Source: a virus. Taken from it: 34,801 nt of DNA. Positions 16,151 to 33,281 of the stretch are shown in pieces. A program made the position numbers and the translations under genes. The notes under the pieces were generated by a model. It saw only the letters and a list, made by a program, of their open reading frames with translations. It had not been told where the DNA came from and ran no database searches. Location of the stretch: the IMG/VR virus record IMGVR_UViG_3300034374_011850, positions 1 through 34,801 of that record; one strand, given 5' to 3'. Position 1 is the first letter of the stretch, and the number at the start of each line of letters is the position of its first letter.

Positions 16151-16240
16151 TCAGGGGAGTACTTTGGATGCGAGCCAGAAGAAGAGGATGATTGCAAGGG
16201 TGTAGATGGCGAATATGATAAGCAGTGTTTGGATGGTCAC
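16151..16240 (-). CDS. 29-residue transmembrane peptide
   Basis: A short frame from GTG 16240 to TGA 16151-16153: VTIQTLLIIFAIYTLAIILF then FWLASKVLP, a single continuous membrane helix. Its GTG overlaps the stop of the methyltransferase gene (GTGA), and the next ATG follows 10 nt after its stop. The fit and the uninterrupted hydrophobic run argue that it is translated. Function is unknown; it may anchor or regulate something in the membrane. Confidence 0.6.
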   Translation of the reverse strand: MTIQTLLIIFAIYTLAIILFFWLASKVLP

Positions 16241-16854
16241 TTTTTGACGGTCCAGAGCTGCCAAGGGCAGAGTACACCCTTTTCAAGGGAGAGGAAGGAG
16301 TTGACGGCGGCATCTACGGAAATGCGCACAGACTCAGCGCCGTAGTCGTCGAATAGGATAGCACCACCTGATTTGACATGGGGCGCGTACAGAGCGATGT
16401 CACGCATGACTGAGGTGCTATCGTGCGCACCGTCGATGTACAGGATGTCGATGCCTTGTGTGAACTCGGCCTTGAGGCTCGGGTAGAGGTCCCACGAGCA
16501 GCCCTTTTCAATGCGGACTTTGCCGGGGTGCTTGGACTTGGCGACGTTGGATCGGGCTGTGAATTCGATCTGGGACAGCGTGGGATGCTGCTGGGGGTCC
16601 CGGATCATCTCCTCAGAGCCGGTGAACGGGTCGATACTGATCAGTCTGCTGTCGGGGTGTTCGAGCAAGTTGTCGGAGAACCAAACTGTCGACGCACCCT
16701 CATAAATGCCAATCTCGACGATTAAACGCCTATCAGATGGGCTAAATTGGAGTTCTGATGCTTCGGGCGTATTGTTGATGACCGCCCAAGATTTCAGTAA
16801 GTTTTGGATCCAGTCGTTGTGAATGCTATATTTCGGATCTAGACTGTGAGGCAT
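16237..16854 (-). CDS. Class I SAM-dependent methyltransferase (Methyltransf_24 type)
   Basis: A 205-residue protein. Motif I VEIGIYEGAS is at residues 46-55, the acidic post-I strand ISIDPF at 72-77, YIDGAHD at 139-145, and GGAILFDDYG at 163-172. This order is the Methyltransf_24/CmcI-like class, often found in sugar, antibiotic or surface-polymer O-methylation clusters. It is the first gene of the minus-strand island and diverges from the 16881 gene across a 26-bp space. Together with the FkbM enzyme at 18480-19196 it suggests that a phage-made or host glycan is methylated; the substrate is not known. Confidence 0.85.
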   Translation of the reverse strand: MPHSLDPKYSIHNDWIQNLLKSWAVINNTPEASELQFSPSDRRLIVEIGIYEGASTVWFSDNLLEHPDSRLISIDPFTGSEEMIRDPQQHPTLSQIEFTARSNVAKSKHPGKVRIEKGCSWDLYPSLKAEFTQGIDILYIDGAHDSTSVMRDIALYAPHVKSGGAILFDDYGAESVRISVDAAVNSFLSLEKGVLCPWQLWTVKK

Positions 16855-17247: not shown

Positions 17248-17487
17248 ATGAAAACTCACCCTTTGATCTGTAGAGTCGCCCGTGACCTTGCCGGATACCA
17301 CGGGAGAGCTGATTGGGAATCTTACGTCTTGGATGCGACTCACGCGATTCGAGCGGTGGCTGAGTGGACTGAAGATTTGCACAAAGATGCAAAGGCTGAT
17401 TTAGACCTCACAGACTGCTATATTACAGTGCCGTACTTACACGGCATTGTCGATGGAGCCTACGCAGGAGAACATACAGATTCTTAA
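17248..17487 (+). CDS. Hypothetical protein downstream of the tRNA
   Basis: A 79-residue protein starting MKTHPLICRVARDLAGYHGR. It is helical and acidic (SYVLDATHAIRAVAEWTEDLHKDAKADLDL), ending YITVPYLHGIVDGAYAGEHTDS. Its 3' end overlaps the zinc-ribbon gene by 35 nt. There is no Shine-Dalgarno and no recognised family. Confidence 0.65.
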   Translation: MKTHPLICRVARDLAGYHGRADWESYVLDATHAIRAVAEWTEDLHKDAKADLDLTDCYITVPYLHGIVDGAYAGEHTDS

Positions 17488-17704
17488 AAAGGCGAGAAAG
17501 GCTTGCCAAGCATGTGGTCTCCGGTACGGCGAAAGGTGCACTGGAGACGCGACGTTCAGCCGTGGCGTCTGTGACGTCTGTGACAAATTGACTGCTGTTA
17601 CGGAAGCCGACACATTCGGCTTTTTCTATCGGGGTATCTGTAATCTGAATCGGCGTAAGTCCCGCATTGAACGGGAATCCAAGCGTGTCACGACATCTAA
17701 TTGA
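17453..17704 (+). CDS. Zinc-ribbon protein, paralogue of 15172-15399
   Basis: An 83-residue protein; ATG 17453 (MEPTQENIQILKKARKACQA) is preferred to TTG 17447. Two CxxC pairs (CQAC and CDVC) lie on either side of GLRYGERCTGD, then KLTAVTEADTFGF. It matches the minus-strand zinc-ribbon protein block for block (C..C G.xYGE ... CDVC ... AVTE...(Y/F)G(Y/F)) but has a longer, basic C-terminus (NRRKSRIERESKRV). Two diverged copies on opposite strands 2 kb apart point to duplication or separate acquisition. Nucleic-acid binding is likely. Confidence 0.75.
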   Translation: MEPTQENIQILKKARKACQACGLRYGERCTGDATFSRGVCDVCDKLTAVTEADTFGFFYRGICNLNRRKSRIERESKRVTTSN

Positions 17705-18062: not shown

Positions 18063-18508
18063 GCGAGAAGTGGGATCGTAGGTTTTTAGACCTGGCGAAG
18101 CACGTCAGTGATTGGAGTCGCGATCCCTCGACTAAGGTTGGGGCTGTCGCAGTTAAAGATCGACGAGTCTTAGCGACCGGATATAACGGATTGCCTAGGG
18201 GCGTTGCGGATCTGCCTGGGCGGCTGAACAATCGGGAGGAAAAATACCTGCGCACAGTGCACGCCGAGGCGAATATTGTCGCGCAGGCTGCCCGATTTGG
18301 GATTGATTTATTTGGTGCTTCTGTTTATGTGTGGCCGTTTTTGCCTTGTAGCAACTGCACCACGCTGATGATTCAGGCCGGTATCCAGCGGATCGTTGTG
18401 CCTGATCTGCCGATACCGGACCGTTGGTTGTCGAACTTCAATCTGTCGATCGAAATGTTGCGCGAGGCCGGCGTGGATATTATGCAGCTTCCTGTCGAAC
18501 AGCAATAA
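18059..18508 (+). CDS. dCMP deaminase
   Basis: A 149-residue protein of the cytidine/deoxycytidylate deaminase family. The catalytic HAE is at residues 68-70 and the zinc ligands are in PCSNC at 96-100. The N-terminal RDPSTKVGAVAVKDRRVLATGYNGLPRGV is the substrate-binding part typical of dCMP deaminases. The enzyme makes dUMP from dCMP and so feeds dTMP synthesis during phage DNA replication. Its ATG overlaps the upstream stop; its 3' end overlaps the convergent FkbM gene by 29 nt. Confidence 0.92.
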   Translation: MSEKWDRRFLDLAKHVSDWSRDPSTKVGAVAVKDRRVLATGYNGLPRGVADLPGRLNNREEKYLRTVHAEANIVAQAARFGIDLFGASVYVWPFLPCSNCTTLMIQAGIQRIVVPDLPIPDRWLSNFNLSIEMLREAGVDIMQLPVEQQ

Positions 18509-19196
18509 ACATATTGTCGAAACCTCGGATTGCGGCGACCGAGTAGCCAAAGGTTACTTGGAGATATTTAAATAGTTCTGCGCGTTTTTGGTTGTAGGCA
18601 CCGGGACCATTGGACTCGAATACGATCGGCGGGTAATTAGAGTCCATGATTGACCATTCGGCGCCTTGCAGCACTTGAAGCTCGGCGCCTTCGACGTCTA
18701 GTTTGATCAGTCCGATGTCTTTAAATTCGAAGTCATCTAGGGTTGTTGTTTCGACAATTTCTTCGTGTTTGATTTGATCTTCTGCTGGTTTTATAAGGCT
18801 TGATCCGCCGCCATCTTCGCTGACGACGTAGAGAGATTTAACTTCGTAGGCGTCTTCTTTGTTTGTCAGGGCTACGTGCTCAGGATTGATGTTTGTTTTC
18901 TCGTTTAGGAAGATGTTGCCGCAGAGCTGGAAGTACGTGCGGCGTTGGGCTTCGAATGCTTCCACGGAAGCGAAGTGATCAGCAAGTAAAATGCTGTATG
19001 CGCCCATGTGCGCTCCGCCGTCGATAAAACGCTTGGTGCTGTCGGCGAATTGCTTGCAGAATTCAATTAGAGGGTGCTCAGGAATTCCGACGCGGAACAT
19101 TTGGCACAGACCTGAGTCGTCCTCGTTCATGAGGAACGCTGGTTTCGGCGTGGGAACGATTAGTTTTTGTTCGGGACCCCAAAGGAAACGTGTCAT
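18480..19196 (-). CDS. FkbM-family methyltransferase
   Basis: A 238-residue protein. SAM-binding motif I FIDGGAHMGAYSI (57-69), VEAFEAQ (78-84) and the family signature IKLDVEGAELQVLQGAE (164-180) are all present, then PPIVFESNG. FkbM enzymes transfer methyl groups to hydroxyls of sugars or polyketides and are common in glycan loci. It is a single minus-strand gene between the deaminase and the tailspike, divergent from the tailspike. With the other sugar-active enzymes of the window it suggests a methylated glycan. Confidence 0.88.
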   Translation of the reverse strand: MTRFLWGPEQKLIVPTPKPAFLMNEDDSGLCQMFRVGIPEHPLIEFCKQFADSTKRFIDGGAHMGAYSILLADHFASVEAFEAQRRTYFQLCGNIFLNEKTNINPEHVALTNKEDAYEVKSLYVVSEDGGGSSLIKPAEDQIKHEEIVETTTLDDFEFKDIGLIKLDVEGAELQVLQGAEWSIMDSNYPPIVFESNGPGAYNQKRAELFKYLQVTFGYSVAAIRGFDNMFIAVRQEAA

Positions 19197-19248
19197 TTCG
19201 GTTTTTATTGTGGCTGTATGTTAACACAAGTTTGGAAGGTTTTTGTTT

Positions 19249-19254
19249 TATACT
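19249..19254 (+). promoter_or_regulatory. Late-type -10 element before the tailspike
   Basis: TATACT (19249-19254) within TTTTATACTGTAAG, about 24 nt before the GTG start of the tailspike gene. The same TATACT is found before the glycosyltransferase at 21393. There is no TG extension and no clear -35. Confidence 0.45.
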
Positions 19255-19277
19255 GTAAGTAATAGGCTTTTTGCGCC

Positions 19278-21257
19278 GTGTCTAGCCAGAATTTTGTTAC
19301 TCGCCCTGGAAGTCAGTTTGTTCAGAGCGGTGCTGATGCTGTTGAACGGACTGTAGAGAATAAACTTCAAGATATTGTCTCCGTTAAGGACTTTGGTGCT
19401 GTTGGAGACGATGTGACAAATGACACTGCCGCTATTCAGGCAGCTATTGATGCGGTTAACACTGCGGGTGGTGGTACAGTCTACTTTCCTCCGGGCTCTT
19501 ATCTTGTTAGCGCTAGCCTAAGTATCTATAGCAAGATTAAGTATCTCGGAGCCGGCTCAAAAGCATCAATCCTAAGAGTCTCTGGAACGCCAGGTCCAGT
19601 TTCTATATTTCAAACGCTTTCTTCCGTTAATGGAGTAGTGTTTGACTCTCTAGGGTTTTCTGGAAGTGTAAACTATCCAGCTGATAGCACTGTTTATAAA
19701 CAAACATATGCTAATAGAAACACAGCGATTCAAACAGCTGGCGGAGTAGCTACAGATTTCTTGGTGCAAAACTGCGACTTCAGGGAGCTGTCTACAGGTT
19801 CTATTGACATCAATGGGGCACAGAGTTCTAACATTAAAATTGTAAACAACTCTTTTTACAAGGGATCCTATTGTTCGCATGTAATCAATGTACGACATCA
19901 AAGCGCTCAGACTGAGGCAAATAGAATCACCGACGTTGTAATTACTGGGAATACATTTGATACCTGTGGACCAGAATATCACTATGACCCAAGTAAAGAG
20001 GATTGGGTCTTCTCTACTAACTGCATAATCGTAGATCGTATTAAGCACGGAACTATTTCCAACAACACCGCCAAGAATGTGAGCGATGGAATCCGCGTGG
20101 AGGATTCTAAATATGTCGCAGTTACTGGTAACGTTGTCGCAGGATCTGGAGGAAGTGGTATTACTGTCTATAAGTATTGCTCTGATTGCAGCGTAACAGG
20201 TAATGTAATACAAAATTGGGGTCGCATACCTTTTGTTTATGCCGTTCGTAATTATAGCGGTACTTATGTTGTAGCTAGAGAGTTTCCCGATGCAGCTACT
20301 GCTCCATTGCCTGCCGACCCAACTGCTTCAACTTGGTTCGATACTTGGCCGTATGCACTTACTGGTGTAGATACAGCCAGCATTATCACGTATAGCGACT
20401 CTGATTATTATACGGGACCCTCTAGCGGCATCCTTCCTTTTAGAGGATACGCTGCTATTTCTTACACTACAGAGAGTCATAACGTAACAGTTACAGGTAA
20501 CACTATTCTTGGAGACATTACTCAAGTTGGCGGGCTATATGTTTATGCTTGTGACTTTGGTGTTACTCCCGTTCACCCTGTTAACAGTCCAACTAGCACA
20601 TTACCTGGACAAGGATGCGTCGTTACCGGCAATTCTATCAGTGACGCGCTTTATAGGTCTCATTATCATCCTGAAGACGAAGACCCTATCAATGGAAACA
20701 ATCCAACTGGCGTTGCTGTTTATGGTCCCGATAAAGAAACGTCTGTTGACGTAGCAGAGAAGAATTTTCATGTTGCTTCGGGAGTGCGTGGCATTGGAGT
20801 AAATAGAGTTGAGTTTCCTGCAACTCCTGTTTATTCAAGCGAACCTAATCATTTGGACACCTACGCGGAAGGCACGTGGGTCGCTCAGTTAAGTCCTGCA
20901 TCTGGCTCCATTACGCTGGAGTACTTCCAATGCCGATACACAAGAATTGGCAATCTGGTTCAAGTAACTGGTCAAATCAAGGCACTTTCGGTGAGTTCAC
21001 CAACTGGAGCACTAAGCATCAATCTTCCATTCACTAGCGCACCAAATAGCGCCGGTAGAGACGCTATTACTGCACACGTAATTACTGCAGGTAGTTTTAC
21101 GGGTTCTCCTGTAGGCTCTATAGAGCTTTCCATTTTAGGCGGTAGCAATACCGGTACTTTCTATCTTTTAGGCACTGATTTTACGCGACTAGATGTCTCT
21201 TCCTACGTGCAAGCCGGCACGGAGTTTAATTTGAACTTCTCTTATTTGGCTACTTGA
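19278..21257 (+). CDS. Tailspike / receptor-binding protein with pectate-lyase beta-helix
   Basis: A 659-residue protein with a GTG start (MSSQNFVTRPGSQFVQSGAD). Residues about 14-33 (FVQSGADAVERTVENKLQDI) are a tail-attachment motif shared with many phage tailspikes, leading into VSVKDFGAVGDDVTNDTAAI, the classic start of the pectate-lyase-3 beta-helix. Repeated short strands with Asn turns (NITNTFD-like GNTFDTCG, SNNTAKNV, VTGNVV, TGNTIL, TGNSIS) form the helix to about 480. A separate C-terminal domain (from about 530, SEPNHLDTYAEGTWVAQLSP) looks like a beta-sandwich trimerisation or receptor-binding part. It probably binds or cleaves host surface polysaccharide. Confidence 0.88.
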   Translation: MSSQNFVTRPGSQFVQSGADAVERTVENKLQDIVSVKDFGAVGDDVTNDTAAIQAAIDAVNTAGGGTVYFPPGSYLVSASLSIYSKIKYLGAGSKASILRVSGTPGPVSIFQTLSSVNGVVFDSLGFSGSVNYPADSTVYKQTYANRNTAIQTAGGVATDFLVQNCDFRELSTGSIDINGAQSSNIKIVNNSFYKGSYCSHVINVRHQSAQTEANRITDVVITGNTFDTCGPEYHYDPSKEDWVFSTNCIIVDRIKHGTISNNTAKNVSDGIRVEDSKYVAVTGNVVAGSGGSGITVYKYCSDCSVTGNVIQNWGRIPFVYAVRNYSGTYVVAREFPDAATAPLPADPTASTWFDTWPYALTGVDTASIITYSDSDYYTGPSSGILPFRGYAAISYTTESHNVTVTGNTILGDITQVGGLYVYACDFGVTPVHPVNSPTSTLPGQGCVVTGNSISDALYRSHYHPEDEDPINGNNPTGVAVYGPDKETSVDVAEKNFHVASGVRGIGVNRVEFPATPVYSSEPNHLDTYAEGTWVAQLSPASGSITLEYFQCRYTRIGNLVQVTGQIKALSVSSPTGALSINLPFTSAPNSAGRDAITAHVITAGSFTGSPVGSIELSILGGSNTGTFYLLGTDFTRLDVSSYVQAGTEFNLNFSYLAT

Positions 21258-21264
21258 GTTATTT

Positions 21265-21354
21265 ATGACAAAAACACGTGACTTAGCCGACCTGGGTGGA
21301 GGTTTCATCCAGGTCGGTTCTGGTGCTGTGCAGCGCACCGTTGAAGGTGACTAA
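21265..21354 (+). CDS. 29-residue stub resembling a tailspike N-terminus
   Basis: Directly after the tailspike, ATG 21265 opens MTKTRDLADLGGGFIQVGSG, then AVQRTVEGD and TAA at 21352-21354. This resembles the head of tailspike/fibre proteins of this type (the neighbour has FVQSGADAVERTVENKLQD), and it stops where the fold would continue into KLQD-VSVKDFGA. Its DNA also contains a perfect 9-bp inverted repeat, CCGACCTGG (21287-21295) and CCAGGTCGG (21309-21317). It looks like the stump of a second tailspike whose body was lost, or a short decoy/assembly peptide. Confidence 0.6.
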   Translation: MTKTRDLADLGGGFIQVGSGAVQRTVEGD

Positions 21355-21359
21355 TACTT

Positions 21360-21368
21360 TGCTATACT
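21360..21368 (+). promoter_or_regulatory. Extended -10 promoter before the GT2-like gene
   Basis: TGCTATACT (TG, one base, TATACT) lies 24 nt before the GTG start at 21393, directly after the tailspike stub. Among the best examples of the TGnTAnnnT series. Confidence 0.55.
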
Positions 21369-21392: not shown

Positions 21393-22163
21393 GTGGTAAT
21401 TCCTGTCATCAGCACAGGTGTAGTTAATACGCCTCACTGGGTGTATCGTCTTTTCTACAGCATAGACTATCCTGTAGACACCTTTGTTGTCTTCAACAAC
21501 AACGGTCGTGACCAAATCACCGAAGAGCTCGACGCTCTAAAAACACTTCCTCACAAATACATCAAAAACGTCAAGGTCTGCCACTTGCCCGCCAATATCG
21601 GCTGCTCTGGCTACTGGAACCTGACGATCAAATGCTTTATGAATGCGCCGTATTGGCTCATCGTAAATCATGACGTTATGTTCACTCCAGGCTTTCTCAA
21701 AGCAATGCACGAGAAAGCCCAAGATCCCGAAGTCGGCGTGGTGCACGGAGACAACGGTGCTTGGGACGTCTTCTTGCTGAAGGATTGGGCAGTCCAGAAG
21801 TACGGTCTGTTCGACGAAAATCTTTATCCCGCTTATTGCGAAGATTTGGACTGGGGTATGCGGTTCCAGCATGACGAAGACTTTAAACGCGTCATGTCAG
21901 TCGGTGTGCCGTATTACCACGGCGAGCTTACTGGGTCGTATGAAGACGGCTCTCAAACCTGGCGTTCCGAACCCGAACTCGCCAATAAAATCCACATGGC
22001 CCACGAGCTCAATAAAACGTACATGCACGCTAAGTGGTCCGAGGCGTGGCAGGGACACGTCGAAGGTAAGCCTTACAAAAACCCGTTTAACAATCCGGCG
22101 TTCCCGTCCTGTCTGACTACCTACAACCTCGATTTTGTGCGGGCGAAAAATTTAGGATTCTAA
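21393..22163 (+). CDS. GT-A-fold (GT2-like) glycosyltransferase
   Basis: A 256-residue protein with a GTG start (VVIPVISTGVVNTPHWVYRL). The N-terminal nucleotide-binding part has FVVFNNNGRD; NIGCSGYWNL and PYWLIVNHDVMFTPGFL hold the acidic metal-binding NHDV (in place of DxD), followed by LYPAYCEDLDWGMR, where the ED may be catalytic. These are features of GT2-like glycosyltransferases. It lies between the tailspike and the packaging genes behind its own late-type promoter. Its product may glycosylate the virion or a host surface structure; donor and acceptor are unknown. Confidence 0.85.
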   Translation: MVIPVISTGVVNTPHWVYRLFYSIDYPVDTFVVFNNNGRDQITEELDALKTLPHKYIKNVKVCHLPANIGCSGYWNLTIKCFMNAPYWLIVNHDVMFTPGFLKAMHEKAQDPEVGVVHGDNGAWDVFLLKDWAVQKYGLFDENLYPAYCEDLDWGMRFQHDEDFKRVMSVGVPYYHGELTGSYEDGSQTWRSEPELANKIHMAHELNKTYMHAKWSEAWQGHVEGKPYKNPFNNPAFPSCLTTYNLDFVRAKNLGF

Positions 22164-26986: not shown

Positions 26987-28159
26987 TCAAACCCCCAGGT
27001 CGTTAATGGCGGCAGTAAAGCCGGCGGCGATAGATTCCCAGCGATACTCAGGGCGCTGAGTTACAGCAAAACAACTTTCGGCGGTGTCGTCGTACGAGAA
27101 TTTGTCGTAGTACAGATCGCTAAGGATCTTGGCGGTTGCTTGTACGTCGATTAAACCGCGCTCGACACCGAGGTCTTTATCCACAACCCATGTGGAAATG
27201 GGGATAAGTTCGGCCGCCGCATTCCAAATGTCTTTGCACGCCGTGTGGTTAGGCACGACTTGCGGTTTTTTGCAGCTTGCGTGTTCGAAGCTAACGAGAC
27301 CCCAACCTTCGCCGTCCGACGTATTGAGGCCCACGTCGCACGCGTTGTAAATAGTATTCAGCAGCTCGTCCGGAGGCGCGTCCAGGTAGTTGATGTTAGT
27401 TGAAGTTAAAATAAGACGGTTATCGCCATCGATATTGCGCCGTTGCATTTCATGCCTGAACAGCGGCAGAATGTCCCAGCCCATGTCTTTGCTGCCCATA
27501 TGTAGGTACAGCATGGCATCGGGCTTGTCGACCGCAAACTCAGCGAATGCTTTGATCGTTAGATCGATTCGCTTGCGGGGTTGATTGCGATTCGCGTTCA
27601 GTACGACAAATTTATCGTCGGGAATGCCGATTTTTTTGCGGGCTTCCGTTTTATCAATCGGGTAGAATCGACCGGTATCGACCCCGTGGGGAAGTACAGC
27701 GAGCCGCTTAGCCTCAGCACCATATTTCATGACGCGCTCAGCCGACGGGATCGTAAATGTGATGGCAAGATCCCAGTGTTTGATGTTACGCAACATGTCC
27801 GGGAAGTAGCTTTCGCTATCCACGGGGAAATACGCGATGAACTTGAACCCGATCTGATCTTTTAAAAACTGACATCGCTCCCAGAACTGGTTTACAACCC
27901 AGATATCGTTAAGGCAGATGATGACGTCCGGTTTTTCCTTATCGATGATCTGAGGGATTCGACCGATGCCGAATCGATCGCCTGAGCCAGAAGGACAAGC
28001 CGGATACACTTTGTATGGATGCTCGTGTGGATCGCCCATATAGTTGATCCCCATAACCACGATATCGTGTTGGTCTTTGAGGATGTTTAAGATGCTGTGA
28101 GTAACTCTTGCAAAGCCTGTATTGCTACAAGCATCACCGTACCAAAGGATTTTCGCCAT
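26987..28159 (-). CDS. GT4-family glycosyltransferase (GT-B fold)
   Basis: A 390-residue protein; ATG 28159 (MAKILWYGDACSNTGFARVT) is preferred to longer starts. The N-terminal GDACSNTGFARVTHSILNIL is the usual GT4 acceptor-domain start; VLNANRNQPRKRIDLTIKAF precedes the donor domain; and the E-x7-E motif appears in DGEGWGLVSFEHASCKKPQVVPN. Such enzymes transfer a hexose from a sugar nucleotide. It is the first gene of the minus-strand pair with the GH130-like propeller, divergent from the terminase. Donor and acceptor are not known. Confidence 0.88.
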   Translation of the reverse strand: MAKILWYGDACSNTGFARVTHSILNILKDQHDIVVMGINYMGDPHEHPYKVYPACPSGSGDRFGIGRIPQIIDKEKPDVIICLNDIWVVNQFWERCQFLKDQIGFKFIAYFPVDSESYFPDMLRNIKHWDLAITFTIPSAERVMKYGAEAKRLAVLPHGVDTGRFYPIDKTEARKKIGIPDDKFVVLNANRNQPRKRIDLTIKAFAEFAVDKPDAMLYLHMGSKDMGWDILPLFRHEMQRRNIDGDNRLILTSTNINYLDAPPDELLNTIYNACDVGLNTSDGEGWGLVSFEHASCKKPQVVPNHTACKDIWNAAAELIPISTWVVDKDLGVERGLIDVQATAKILSDLYYDKFSYDDTAESCFAVTQRPEYRWESIAAGFTAAINDLGV

Positions 28160-28178
28160 GCAAACTCGGTAGATCGAG

Positions 28179-28208
28179 TACAATTACTATAACAGTGCTA
28201 TCAGCTTA
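28179..28208 (+). promoter_or_regulatory. Promoter/leader of the terminase gene
   Basis: Two overlapping -10-like boxes, TACAAT (28179-28184) and TATAAC (28188-28193), are followed by ATCAGCTTA (28200-28208), an element also found before 16881 and in variant form before 22190. The ATG is at 28214. This is a divergent region shared with the GT4 gene. Confidence 0.4.
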
Positions 28209-28213
28209 TAGAC

Positions 28214-29737
28214 ATGCCTAGTCGGGAAACTTTTGCGTATCGCCGTGGAGCACAACTACGAGCGCTGAGAGCAATAGAGAGTAACGATAATAACGCTACA
28301 GAGACTATTTATACCAAGGCTTCTAACGACTTTCATACTTTCTGTACGTTGTTAGATAAGCCGCCAGCTCCTCACATGCTGGAATGGCACGAGCACTTAG
28401 TGACAGATGAGAGCAATAAGTATTTGTTAGATATTGCTGGACCGAATCTCGATATTCTGGCGCCTAGGGGGTCGGCCAAGTCGACTGTACTCAACATGTT
28501 TACTGCATGGTGCATAGGACGCCATACTACTGCAAAACGACCATTGCAAATTATTTATGTGAGTTACAACATCGCGACTGCGATTCCCAAGTCGCGCATT
28601 ATTCGGCAGATCGTTGATTCTTCTGAGTTTCGCAAGATCTTTCCGACATGCAGACTGAAACCTGGGATGCAGTCGGATATCGGTTGGTCGATTGATTATG
28701 ACTACGCCGGCATCCCTAGACTCGGTGATGAAGAATTCACTCTAAGAGCAGCAGGACTACGAGGTAGTATTACGAGTAAAAGGGCTCACTTGGTACTAAT
28801 TGATGACCCTATAAAATCTTCAGCTGATATTAAAAACCCTACAATCAGGGAAGAAATGAATAATAACTGGAGTAGCGTTATAGCTCCTATTGTGTTTGAA
28901 GGCGGGCGTTCTATTTGTTTGGGTACCCGGTTCCACCCGTTAGACATCCACAAGACGATGTTTGTGCCCGAAAAAGGGTGGAAGCAGGTTACGCAGGAGG
29001 CTCTGACCTACGACGATAAAGGGCAGCCGAAAAGTTATTGGCAAAATCAATGGTCTGTTGATTACCTGCTACAACAGAAAGAACTGGATCCCGTCGCGTT
29101 CTGTTTTCAGTATCAACAGCAGCCCGTGGCCACGTCGGATTTAGTCGTGTCTCCTGATTTACTACTTAAGGGTGATGTTGCTACCGAGTTTGACAGTTTG
29201 GCGCTCGGAATTGATTTGTCAGCGAGTAAAAACGAGACGTCAGACTACACAGCTTTTGTTTTAGCGGGGCGATTAAAGGATAAATACTATGTTGTAGATG
29301 CTCATCAGTGTCGATCTATAGGCAATCTCGAAAAAATAGACTTGCTATGCGACATGTTGCTGGAATGGGGCATCTTAACTAAGTACAACGGAGAGTATCA
29401 GCCGACGTATTCCACGGTGACTCTCGTGGTTGAATCGGTCGCCTACCAAGCGAGTTTGGCTGCCGACTTACGACGCGTGCTTTTGAACGAGCGGGGCCTG
29501 AGCAATCTGCACATTCACGAAGTTAAAGGGTTTAGGGGCGATAAGATTGCTCGTTTCCGGGGTACCTTGGGTCTCTTGGAGAATCAGAGAGTGGTCTTTA
29601 ACAAATATCGCAAATTCGATGCTTTGTTCGATCAGCTCATTAACGTAGGTGCCACAGCGCATGACGATTTGCTGGACGCTTATACGTGGGTAATTACATT
29701 CTTACAGCGGCGAGGCAGTTTTTCTGTTGAGTATTAA
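28214..29737 (+). CDS. terL: Terminase large subunit
   Basis: A 507-residue protein. Walker A LAPRGSAKST is at residues 82-91, Walker B LVLIDDPI at 193-200, and coupling residues follow in GTRFHPLD (237-244). The nuclease domain has GIDLSAS (Asp334), LVVESVAYQ (Glu407) and HDDLLDAY (Asp484/485), as in TerL RNase H-fold nucleases. It packages DNA into the procapsid using ATP and cuts it. It begins the plus-strand run that includes the portal. No insertion or inactivating change was seen. Confidence 0.95.
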   Translation: MPSRETFAYRRGAQLRALRAIESNDNNATETIYTKASNDFHTFCTLLDKPPAPHMLEWHEHLVTDESNKYLLDIAGPNLDILAPRGSAKSTVLNMFTAWCIGRHTTAKRPLQIIYVSYNIATAIPKSRIIRQIVDSSEFRKIFPTCRLKPGMQSDIGWSIDYDYAGIPRLGDEEFTLRAAGLRGSITSKRAHLVLIDDPIKSSADIKNPTIREEMNNNWSSVIAPIVFEGGRSICLGTRFHPLDIHKTMFVPEKGWKQVTQEALTYDDKGQPKSYWQNQWSVDYLLQQKELDPVAFCFQYQQQPVATSDLVVSPDLLLKGDVATEFDSLALGIDLSASKNETSDYTAFVLAGRLKDKYYVVDAHQCRSIGNLEKIDLLCDMLLEWGILTKYNGEYQPTYSTVTLVVESVAYQASLAADLRRVLLNERGLSNLHIHEVKGFRGDKIARFRGTLGLLENQRVVFNKYRKFDALFDQLINVGATAHDDLLDAYTWVITFLQRRGSFSVEY

Positions 29738-29738
29738 C

Positions 29739-30620
29739 ATGGAGTCGTCTAAAAAGCTTTGGGTCGCTATAACTGCGTACGACCCTCTGTCCCGTTTGGA
29801 TAGCATTTTCAAGATCTTACAGCTGTATACGGAGTACGAGCTTAAAGTTTCGGTATTTTTGTTTGTCAATTACGAGGCTCAGGATCAGGTCCCACAGCTT
29901 TCTTCGCTTTTGCGCCCTTTTTCGGAGCAAATCGGCGTGGAAATCATCGTTGCTAGCCCCGAGCACGAGGGATGGTGGCTTACTTGGGCGCACAAAATAG
30001 ACTTAACTGTCGCTTGTATGCGCAGAGAGTACGATTATTACATGTATCAGGAAAATGATATGCTTATTACATGGGAACACTTCAAATATTGGATGCGTTG
30101 GAAGCCTCGCTTGGCCTCTTTGGGCCTAGAACCTGGTTTTATAAGGTATGAGTTGTTTGGCGGCAAGAAAGTACCGTTTGATAACCACTATCGCTACTCC
30201 TTGACCGGTAAAACACCGAATGTTTGGAGTGATCGCGGATATACAGTCGCTAAACAGCTTGTCGTCGACCACGAAATCAAGTTTTTCGCGAGTTTGGGCA
30301 GCCCTTACTACGCAGCTATGATTTTGGACGCTGAGGATGCGGTCAAATACGTAAAAAGCGCCAGTATGGACCCTCAAAAGAGCGTCGAACTGGTTTCTTT
30401 CCGTAATTGGCCATTAGCTGACCGCAGTTCGATGGGTTTAGCCTTCGAAAACCCGCCAGTCGGGTATGAACACCGTCGTTGCGTGCCTGTAATCGAAAAA
30501 AACGGACGATACATGCCGCATGAGTGCTGTTTGTTGCGCCATGACGATCTGAAGTACGCACCGGAGCTCAATAAGAGGGTTGGCAACTTGATTACTTGCG
30601 ATACAATGCTTACGATTTGA
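29739..30620 (+). CDS. Glycosyltransferase-like protein (GT-A type)
   Basis: A 293-residue protein; ATG 29739 begins 1 nt after the TerL stop (MESSKKLWVAITAYDPLSRL), preferred to an upstream TTG. LWVAITAYDP and the alternating VFLFVNYEAQ, VEIIVASPEH look like a Rossmann-type GT-A core; YYMYQENDMLITWEHFKYW has an END acidic motif at the place of DxD. The C-terminal part holds several Cys (RRCVPVI, HECCLLRH). It lies in the packaging module but is unlikely to be a packaging protein. Probably part of the same glycan pathway as the other GTs. Confidence 0.65.
   Translation: MESSKKLWVAITAYDPLSRLDSIFKILQLYTEYELKVSVFLFVNYEAQDQVPQLSSLLRPFSEQIGVEIIVASPEHEGWWLTWAHKIDLTVACMRREYDYYMYQENDMLITWEHFKYWMRWKPRLASLGLEPGFIRYELFGGKKVPFDNHYRYSLTGKTPNVWSDRGYTVAKQLVVDHEIKFFASLGSPYYAAMILDAEDAVKYVKSASMDPQKSVELVSFRNWPLADRSSMGLAFENPPVGYEHRRCVPVIEKNGRYMPHECCLLRHDDLKYAPELNKRVGNLITCDTMLTI
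30580..30607 (+). promoter_or_regulatory. Possible sigma70-type promoter before the DUF3310 gene
   Basis: TTGGCA (30580-30585) and TACAAT (30602-30607) are spaced 16 bp apart, within the end of the previous gene. The start codon is at 30628. One of few plus-strand elements here with a plausible -35. Confidence 0.4.
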
Positions 30621-32438: not shown

Positions 32439-33281
32439 ATGCTGTTCGATTGTTTTTTGTACTTCAATGAACGCGAGCTTTTAGAGCTACGCGTGGAAAT
32501 GCTTAAAGATGTTGTTGATGGTTTTATAATTACAGACGCTAATAGAACTTTTAAAGGCGACGAAAAGCCTTTTACTTGTGTAGACACGATCCGCGAACTC
32601 GGATTACCCGAAGACAAAATTCAAGTACTGCACGTAGAACTGCCGCCGCCGGATATCGCACCTAGTCCTTGGGTCCGGGAATATTCTCAGCGCGACGCTC
32701 TGGCTGTCGGTATGCGGATGACTCCGCCAGATTCTGCTTTCTTCTTCAGTGATGTCGATGAGATTCCCAAACCTTCTGCTTTATTAGAAGCTGTTGAAGT
32801 AGCTAAGAAAGACCCCGAACGCTGTGTTCGCCTCTCGATGCCGATGATGTACGGCCGCGCTGACCTTCGGGTTATGAGTCCGGATGGAGACAAAACTAAG
32901 CCTCCCACCAATTGGACTTGCGGGACCGTGGTTCTCCACGACCATCTAGATAAGACCTTGTCCGAGATACGCCGCAACCCTAATGATGTCGTTATAGGCG
33001 ACTGTAATGCCGGATGGCACTTCAGTTGGATGGGCGGCGCGGATCGTCTCAAGCGCAAACTGACGTCTTTTTCTCATTGTTACGACGAAATTCCCAACGC
33101 GTATGCTCCTGCATATAGCCAGGAGATGCTGGACTACTTAGATAGCTATAAAGCTACTGTAGGAGGCACAGATCCTCTTGGTCGTAAAGACCATATACTG
33201 ACTTCGTATCCTCATGATCTTTTACCGCCAGAATTGTTTAAACTGGAACGAGTGAAGGAGTACCTGCTCCCGGACTCCTGA
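32439..33281 (+). CDS. GT17-like glycosyltransferase
   Basis: A 280-residue protein starting MLFDCFLYFNERELLELRVE, the typical opening of GT17 (beta-1,4-N-acetylglucosaminyltransferase-like) proteins. The metal-binding DVDE is in FFFSDVDEIP at 101-110, and NAGWHFSWMGG at 190-200 is a conserved acceptor-side motif. A family known from bacteria, giant viruses and phages. It lies between the basic proteins and the portal, behind its own promoter. It adds a fourth GT-like enzyme to the window; donor and acceptor are not known. Confidence 0.85.
   Translation: MLFDCFLYFNERELLELRVEMLKDVVDGFIITDANRTFKGDEKPFTCVDTIRELGLPEDKIQVLHVELPPPDIAPSPWVREYSQRDALAVGMRMTPPDSAFFFSDVDEIPKPSALLEAVEVAKKDPERCVRLSMPMMYGRADLRVMSPDGDKTKPPTNWTCGTVVLHDHLDKTLSEIRRNPNDVVIGDCNAGWHFSWMGGADRLKRKLTSFSHCYDEIPNAYAPAYSQEMLDYLDSYKATVGGTDPLGRKDHILTSYPHDLLPPELFKLERVKEYLLPDS

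Follow-up and report, generated by a model that had tools for sequence, protein, structure and literature searches.

A truncated tailspike start behind the tailspike gene of an S-EIV1-like cyanophage fragment, a probable scar of receptor-binding-gene exchange

Introduction

The choice of a cyanobacterial host by a phage is set by receptor-binding genes. The viral DNA analysed here, referred to as the window, is the whole 34,801-nt stretch of IMG/VR record IMGVR_UViG_3300034374_011850 (positions 1 to 34,801), in which the tailspike gene is directly followed by a frame of 29 codons. In a preliminary description this frame was read as the attachment end of a second tailspike that stops before the beta-helix, and the question raised by the locus is why such a stub stands behind a full tailspike gene. 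Two answers had been proposed, namely a scar left by the swapping of receptor-binding proteins, in which the conserved 5' part would have been the point of recombination, and a short peptide that competes for tail binding.

Results

The stub and its neighbours in the window

The tailspike gene (19278..21257, plus strand) has a GTG start and encodes a 659-aa protein (Pect-lyase_RHGA_epim) classed as a beta-helix by both Pfam and PHROGs. The stub frame (21265-21354, plus strand) was confirmed directly behind it, running from ATG to TAA and opening 7 nt beyond the tailspike stop (21257). It encodes 29 aa (MTKTRDLADLGGGFIQVGSGAVQRTVEGD) that gave no match in Pfam and PHROGs. Its head-derived DNA comprises 81 nt (21265..21345, plus strand), from the ATG to the GAA of MTKTRDLADLGGGFIQVGSGAVQRTVE. 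The non-head tail of the frame (21346..21354, plus strand; GGTGACTAA, coding for G, D and stop) forms the junction to the upstream region of the glycosyltransferase gene, and full-length heads read ...GTTGAATCAAAGCTGCAAGAT at this position instead. A receptor-binding body is absent from the stub, which stops after 29 codons and is followed by the glycosyltransferase gene (Glycos_transf_2 in Pfam; 21393..22163, plus strand). The head of the window's own tailspike is MSSQNFVTRPGSQFVQSGADAVERTVENK, which differs from the stub; the stub is therefore not a local duplicate, and its origin as a copy of the window's own spike head was ruled out.

Several glycosyl- or methyltransferases were predicted among the structural genes of the window (16237-16854, 18480-19196, 21393-22163, 26987-28183, 29727-30620 and 32439-33281), three of them confirmed by Pfam and the rest guessed from the sequence.

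The TerL of the window is closest to that of Synechococcus phage S-EIV1 (51% over 100% of the length, with the next best at about 25%), and the window is consequently a fragment of an S-EIV1-like cyanophage. A separate observation concerns the terminase of the relative L004 (record G021, 40193-42910), in which two pieces of a single 913-aa open frame, about 1.2 kb apart, match the window. The S-EIV1 terminase likewise matches in two pieces, over 2.5 kb, and an in-frame insertion such as an intein is a possible cause of the split.

Full-length genes that start with the same DNA

A scan of IMG/VR with a degenerate-codon DNA pattern of the stub peptide motif yielded 64 loci; all the loci are metagenome assemblies except for a few isolates. 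In about 45 of the 64, MTKTRDLADLGGGFIQAGTGAVQRTVESKLQDVVSVKDFG forms the start of a tailspike ORF, either full-length or end-truncated, of roughly 420-840 aa, such as the head-bearing ORF of L097, which matches Pect-lyase_RHGA_epim. The first 81 nt of the stub, hereafter called the head (MTKTRDLADLGGGFIQ.GSGAVQRTVE), open dozens of full-length beta-helix tailspikes in this database and are 98-99% identical, over 82-83 nt, to the full-length heads of L057, L067, L068, L084 and others. With about 45 full-length ORFs having the identical starting peptide, the resemblance is far above chance, and the stub was correctly described as similar to a tailspike attachment end that terminates before the beta-helix, its stop coming after 29 codons.

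Identity anchored at the ATG was computed on 29 heads with non-redundant bodies. It was at the chance level upstream of the ATG (0.26-0.29, with 0.29 in the preceding 30 nt), rose to 0.89-1.00 between the ATG and +90, and was down to chance by +200; head nt 30-45 were 100% identical in the 29 heads. Since the wobble positions were left free in the scan pattern, this conservation at the DNA level is not an effect of the search. At fourfold-degenerate sites in the same phages, identity was 0.89 in the heads versus 0.63 in a holin-like gene, a figure that is approximate because it was obtained in an ungapped register. The most conserved part of the head is a core 18-mer (GGTGGAGGTTTCATCCAG; 21295..21312, plus strand), which is exact in 51 IMG/VR loci, essentially all heads and stubs. 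An unrecognised function of the DNA or RNA is another possible cause of the extreme conservation at nt 30-45. There is also a second DNA type (..CGAGACCTAGCCGACCTTGGTGGCGGC..), in which other codons specify the same head peptide and both the core and the hairpin described below are missing.

The head-carrying full-length spikes belong mostly to T7-like cyanophages, and a Phage_T7_tail (T7 tail-fibre) protein was present in 17 of the 20 head-carrying records tested. The exceptions were L102, related to the tape-measure phage L071 and encoding a 1314-aa protein distantly related to tail proteins of the cyanophages S-CBS1 and S-LBS1; L055, which is S-EIV1-like (TerL 98%); and L091, the relative of the window. 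The head is thus found in at least three lineages that are otherwise unrelated, and its DNA stands in front of or behind receptor-binding genes in many T7-like cyanophages and in some long-tailed and some S-EIV1-like ones. Isolated phages gave only weak protein matches to the head and no DNA match in the phage collection, where the nearest DNA matches were three Aeromonas phage records (E 0.1 over 32 nt). The head matches in bacterial genomes were weaker, and nearly all of the best 80 fell in the later part of the head.

A tailspike slot with replaced bodies

Judging from the aligned relatives, the interval between the FkbM-type methyltransferase gene (18480..19196, minus strand; Pfam and relatives), its left border, and the glycosyltransferase gene, its right border, is a slot in which tailspikes are gained and lost. 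The slot is without a spike in four relatives (L005, L007, L008 and L010) and holds spikes of 433 aa in L004, 448 aa in L006, about 586 aa in L091 and 659 aa in the window, these four having related heads and different bodies. Several of the slot relatives trail a different foreign fragment behind the spike: a holin-like gene in L002-L004, with DNA 84-91% identical to T7-like head-carrying phages; a stub of another head (MANIKIS) at the same place in L001, preceded by a 59-nt piece that is 91.5% identical to S-SRP01; and, in the window and L091, the stub described here. At CGCACCGT, 69 nt from the start of its gene, the L004 spike turns near-identical to the head of T7-like phages, and in this phage both the left crossover and the right-hand hitchhiker of one transfer are caught.

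The same stub occurs in only one close relative, L091. Over 188 nt (19221..19408, plus strand), comprising the spike upstream region and the first 131 nt of the spike gene, the window and L091 show no mismatch. This stretch would represent the left homology arm of the swap; the bodies beyond are unrelated. Identity resumes exactly at the stub ATG (21265), with only two differences in the 348 nt up to the end of L091, both inside the stub. In the FkbM methyltransferase gene the two phages are only 55-74% identical (18468-19068) with both flanks at 93-100%, and this is, on the alignment, a second replaced segment adjoining the spike. Identity also dips to 53-73% at 17268-17568, within otherwise 87-99% sequence.

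No contig carrying the window's spike body together with a full-length second tailspike was found in IMG/VR, and IMG/VR scans with both spike bodies (window and L091) returned only the relative itself. Distant relatives of the C-terminal domain of the window spike are present in head-carrying phages. The full-length second tailspike for which related phages were to be searched was found in other, donor lineages; at the same place in L091 there is only the stub.

The pattern recurs in an independent pair: ahead of the head ATG the sequences of L055 and L196 diverge, and beyond it they are almost the same. Their identity runs through the truncated head into a second head (MASIKISEL), which belongs to a 307-aa product in the long-tailed phage L196 and is cut at 70 aa in L055. 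The replaced body between the window and L091, together with a border at the same ATG in L055/L196, supports the earlier proposal of a swap scar whose conserved 5' part serves as a recombination point. Two truncated heads of tail genes are stacked in L055 (3345-3640; record G008, about 32900-33200), like layers of successive swaps.

Recurrence of stubs and head repeats

Stubs with varied cut points and varied next genes were also found in L069/L092, L071, L082, L102, L110, L112 and L195/L196. In these phages they end at 16, 20, 21, 23, 28, 44 or 52 aa, and their C-termini are unrelated. Between L071, L102 and L112 the stubs match at 98-100% over 48-49 nt, in a setting of unrelated immediate flanks and of aligned structural genes with mostly 70-81% identity. 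Of 39 full-length head genes, about a dozen have a short head repeat behind them, in most cases no more than 30 nt past the stop; these right-hand repeats reach up to 28 nt (L100) and retain only 8-17 codons, and some are degraded or without ATG. By its length among these carriers, the window stub is one of the longest in the class of right-hand head fragments. In the T7-like L100 (10370-12123), L194 (306-2036) and L198/L200, a 24-28 nt direct repeat of the tail gene's own start was observed within 30 nt of the stop, just ahead of the following gene, which is not a tail gene and in most of them is holin-like.

These comparisons bear on whether the 29-aa stub is translated into a peptide that would bind to the tail or influence the assembly of the spike. 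The ATG placed 7 nt behind the spike stop would allow re-initiation, and the stub sequence corresponds to the presumed attachment end. However, the conservation in L071, L102 and L112 is at the DNA level with ends at different codons, and the few codons of the right-hand repeats, not always with a start codon, fit such a product poorly. Because the length, the C-terminus and even the ATG of the stubs vary between phages, a functional peptide is highly improbable, and the suggested competition for tail binding is not supported.

Inverted repeat, hairpin and promoter-like element

The perfect 9-bp inverted repeat noted previously is present in the stub (21287..21317, plus strand), with arms CCGACCTGG (21287-21295) and CCAGGTCGG (21309-21317). 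With loops of 3-20 allowed, the window contains seven such perfect 9-bp repeats and ten mononucleotide shuffles gave 0-7, so that the repeat alone is not beyond chance. It is perfect only with a GTC (Val) codon, and most heads are without GTC. A strong RNA hairpin was predicted at stub nt 21-55, with a fold of -36 kcal/mol for the stub versus -21 +/- 3.8 for synonymous variants. The common head folds at about -30 kcal/mol, and the second DNA type shows no excess. In 22 distinct sequences, 0 pairs were changed on both sides, which means that no compensatory changes were detected. A functional hairpin was ruled out by this lack of covariation and by its absence from the second DNA type, and the inverted repeat is treated as incidental.

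A promoter-like element, TTGAAG-16-TATACT with TG (21341..21368, plus strand), spans the end of the stub, with its -35 box in the last stub bases. It is probably the promoter region of the glycosyltransferase gene, as suggested by a consensus match that is not above shuffles. This element and the strong hairpin could indicate that the stub has been kept as a regulatory element of that gene, through the hairpin or the -35 box, but the same glycosyltransferase gene has an entirely different upstream sequence in the relatives and the promoter match itself does not exceed that of shuffles, which makes such a role very unlikely.

The invariant nt 30-45 would also be explained if the head DNA were the dedicated site of a specific recombinase. 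The core is invariant with variation on both sides, it is found in three lineages, identical right-hand haplotypes are joined to two different left-hand ones, and the hairpin is stronger than in synonymous variants. Nevertheless, the second DNA type, without core or hairpin, also yields a stub (L069/L092), the hairpin lacks compensatory changes, and the junctions lie at many different positions. These many junction positions and the coreless second type do not correspond to the fixed crossover point of an integron- or invertase-like cassette, and a dedicated site is considered improbable.

Discussion

From the comparison of sequences, the stub is very probably the scar of a receptor-binding-gene exchange between co-infecting cyanophages, and it is best read also as a reusable crossover point. 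The donor would have carried a spike body followed by a next gene starting with head DNA, and recombination would have placed this body in an S-EIV1-like phage, in the slot between its FkbM and glycosyltransferase genes. On the left, the crossover would have taken place in the conserved spike head, by homologous recombination between the heads of co-infecting phages, and the right-hand join would carry along the first part of the donor sequence that lay behind the spike. A right join 81 nt into the head of the next gene, just before the glycosyltransferase promoter region, would leave a 27-codon remnant with two junction codons and a stop. The remnant could then act as a right-hand homology arm for further swaps, as between the window and L091, which have a shared stub and unrelated bodies. 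The sequences directly show the full-length versions in other lineages, the DNA identity that begins at the ATG, the spike bodies replaced between head and stub in relatives, the foreign fragments behind other spikes of the slot and the repeated occurrence of stubs. We infer that the enzymatic route was homologous recombination, in which direction the transfer went, and that the 29-aa peptide has no function.

A tentative, rather doubtful extension is that the head DNA serves a local cyanophage community as a common exchange site and stays near-identical at synonymous sites across unrelated lineages because of its continual use for swapping on both gene sides, with selection or gene conversion acting on the head as DNA and as protein. 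A head common to T7-like, long-tailed and S-EIV1-like cyanophages provides a concrete route for exchange across lineages, and the stubs constitute a readable record of past swaps and their donors. It is predicted that co-infecting head-sharing phages should recombine at the head.

In a limited search of the open-access literature, no description was found of a DNA-conserved head on both gene sides with truncated copies recording swaps. Among characterised cyanophages, S-EIV1 (KJ410740) shares the terminase lineage of the window (51%) and gave no head DNA match in the phage collection, and the T7-like cyanophages (Autographiviridae) DSL-LC07 and S-SRP01 are relatives of the main head-carrying group, although these isolates are themselves without head DNA.

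The exchange of receptor-binding modules, also across morphologies, is already established (PMC10579305, PMC10684548). Tailspikes and tail fibres undergo modular exchange via conserved N-terminal anchors, with domain mosaicism (PMC10684548). As in those systems, a conserved N-terminal part is joined here to unrelated C-terminal bodies and recent exchange crosses taxa; unlike them, the present case shows conservation of the head at the DNA level, truncated stub copies and short right-side head repeats. The distantly related Alteromonas phages A5, V22 and P24 have a common host recognition module (PMC10579305), and the parallel lies in tail-fibre genes that moved among podo-, myo- and siphoviral phages of one host genus. 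In those phages whole multi-gene modules with about 41-67% protein similarity are involved, whereas the exchange here concerns individual spike genes, and the element they share is a near-identical head of about 90 nt. What appears to be new in the present system is a repeat-bounded, cross-lineage DNA head with scars.
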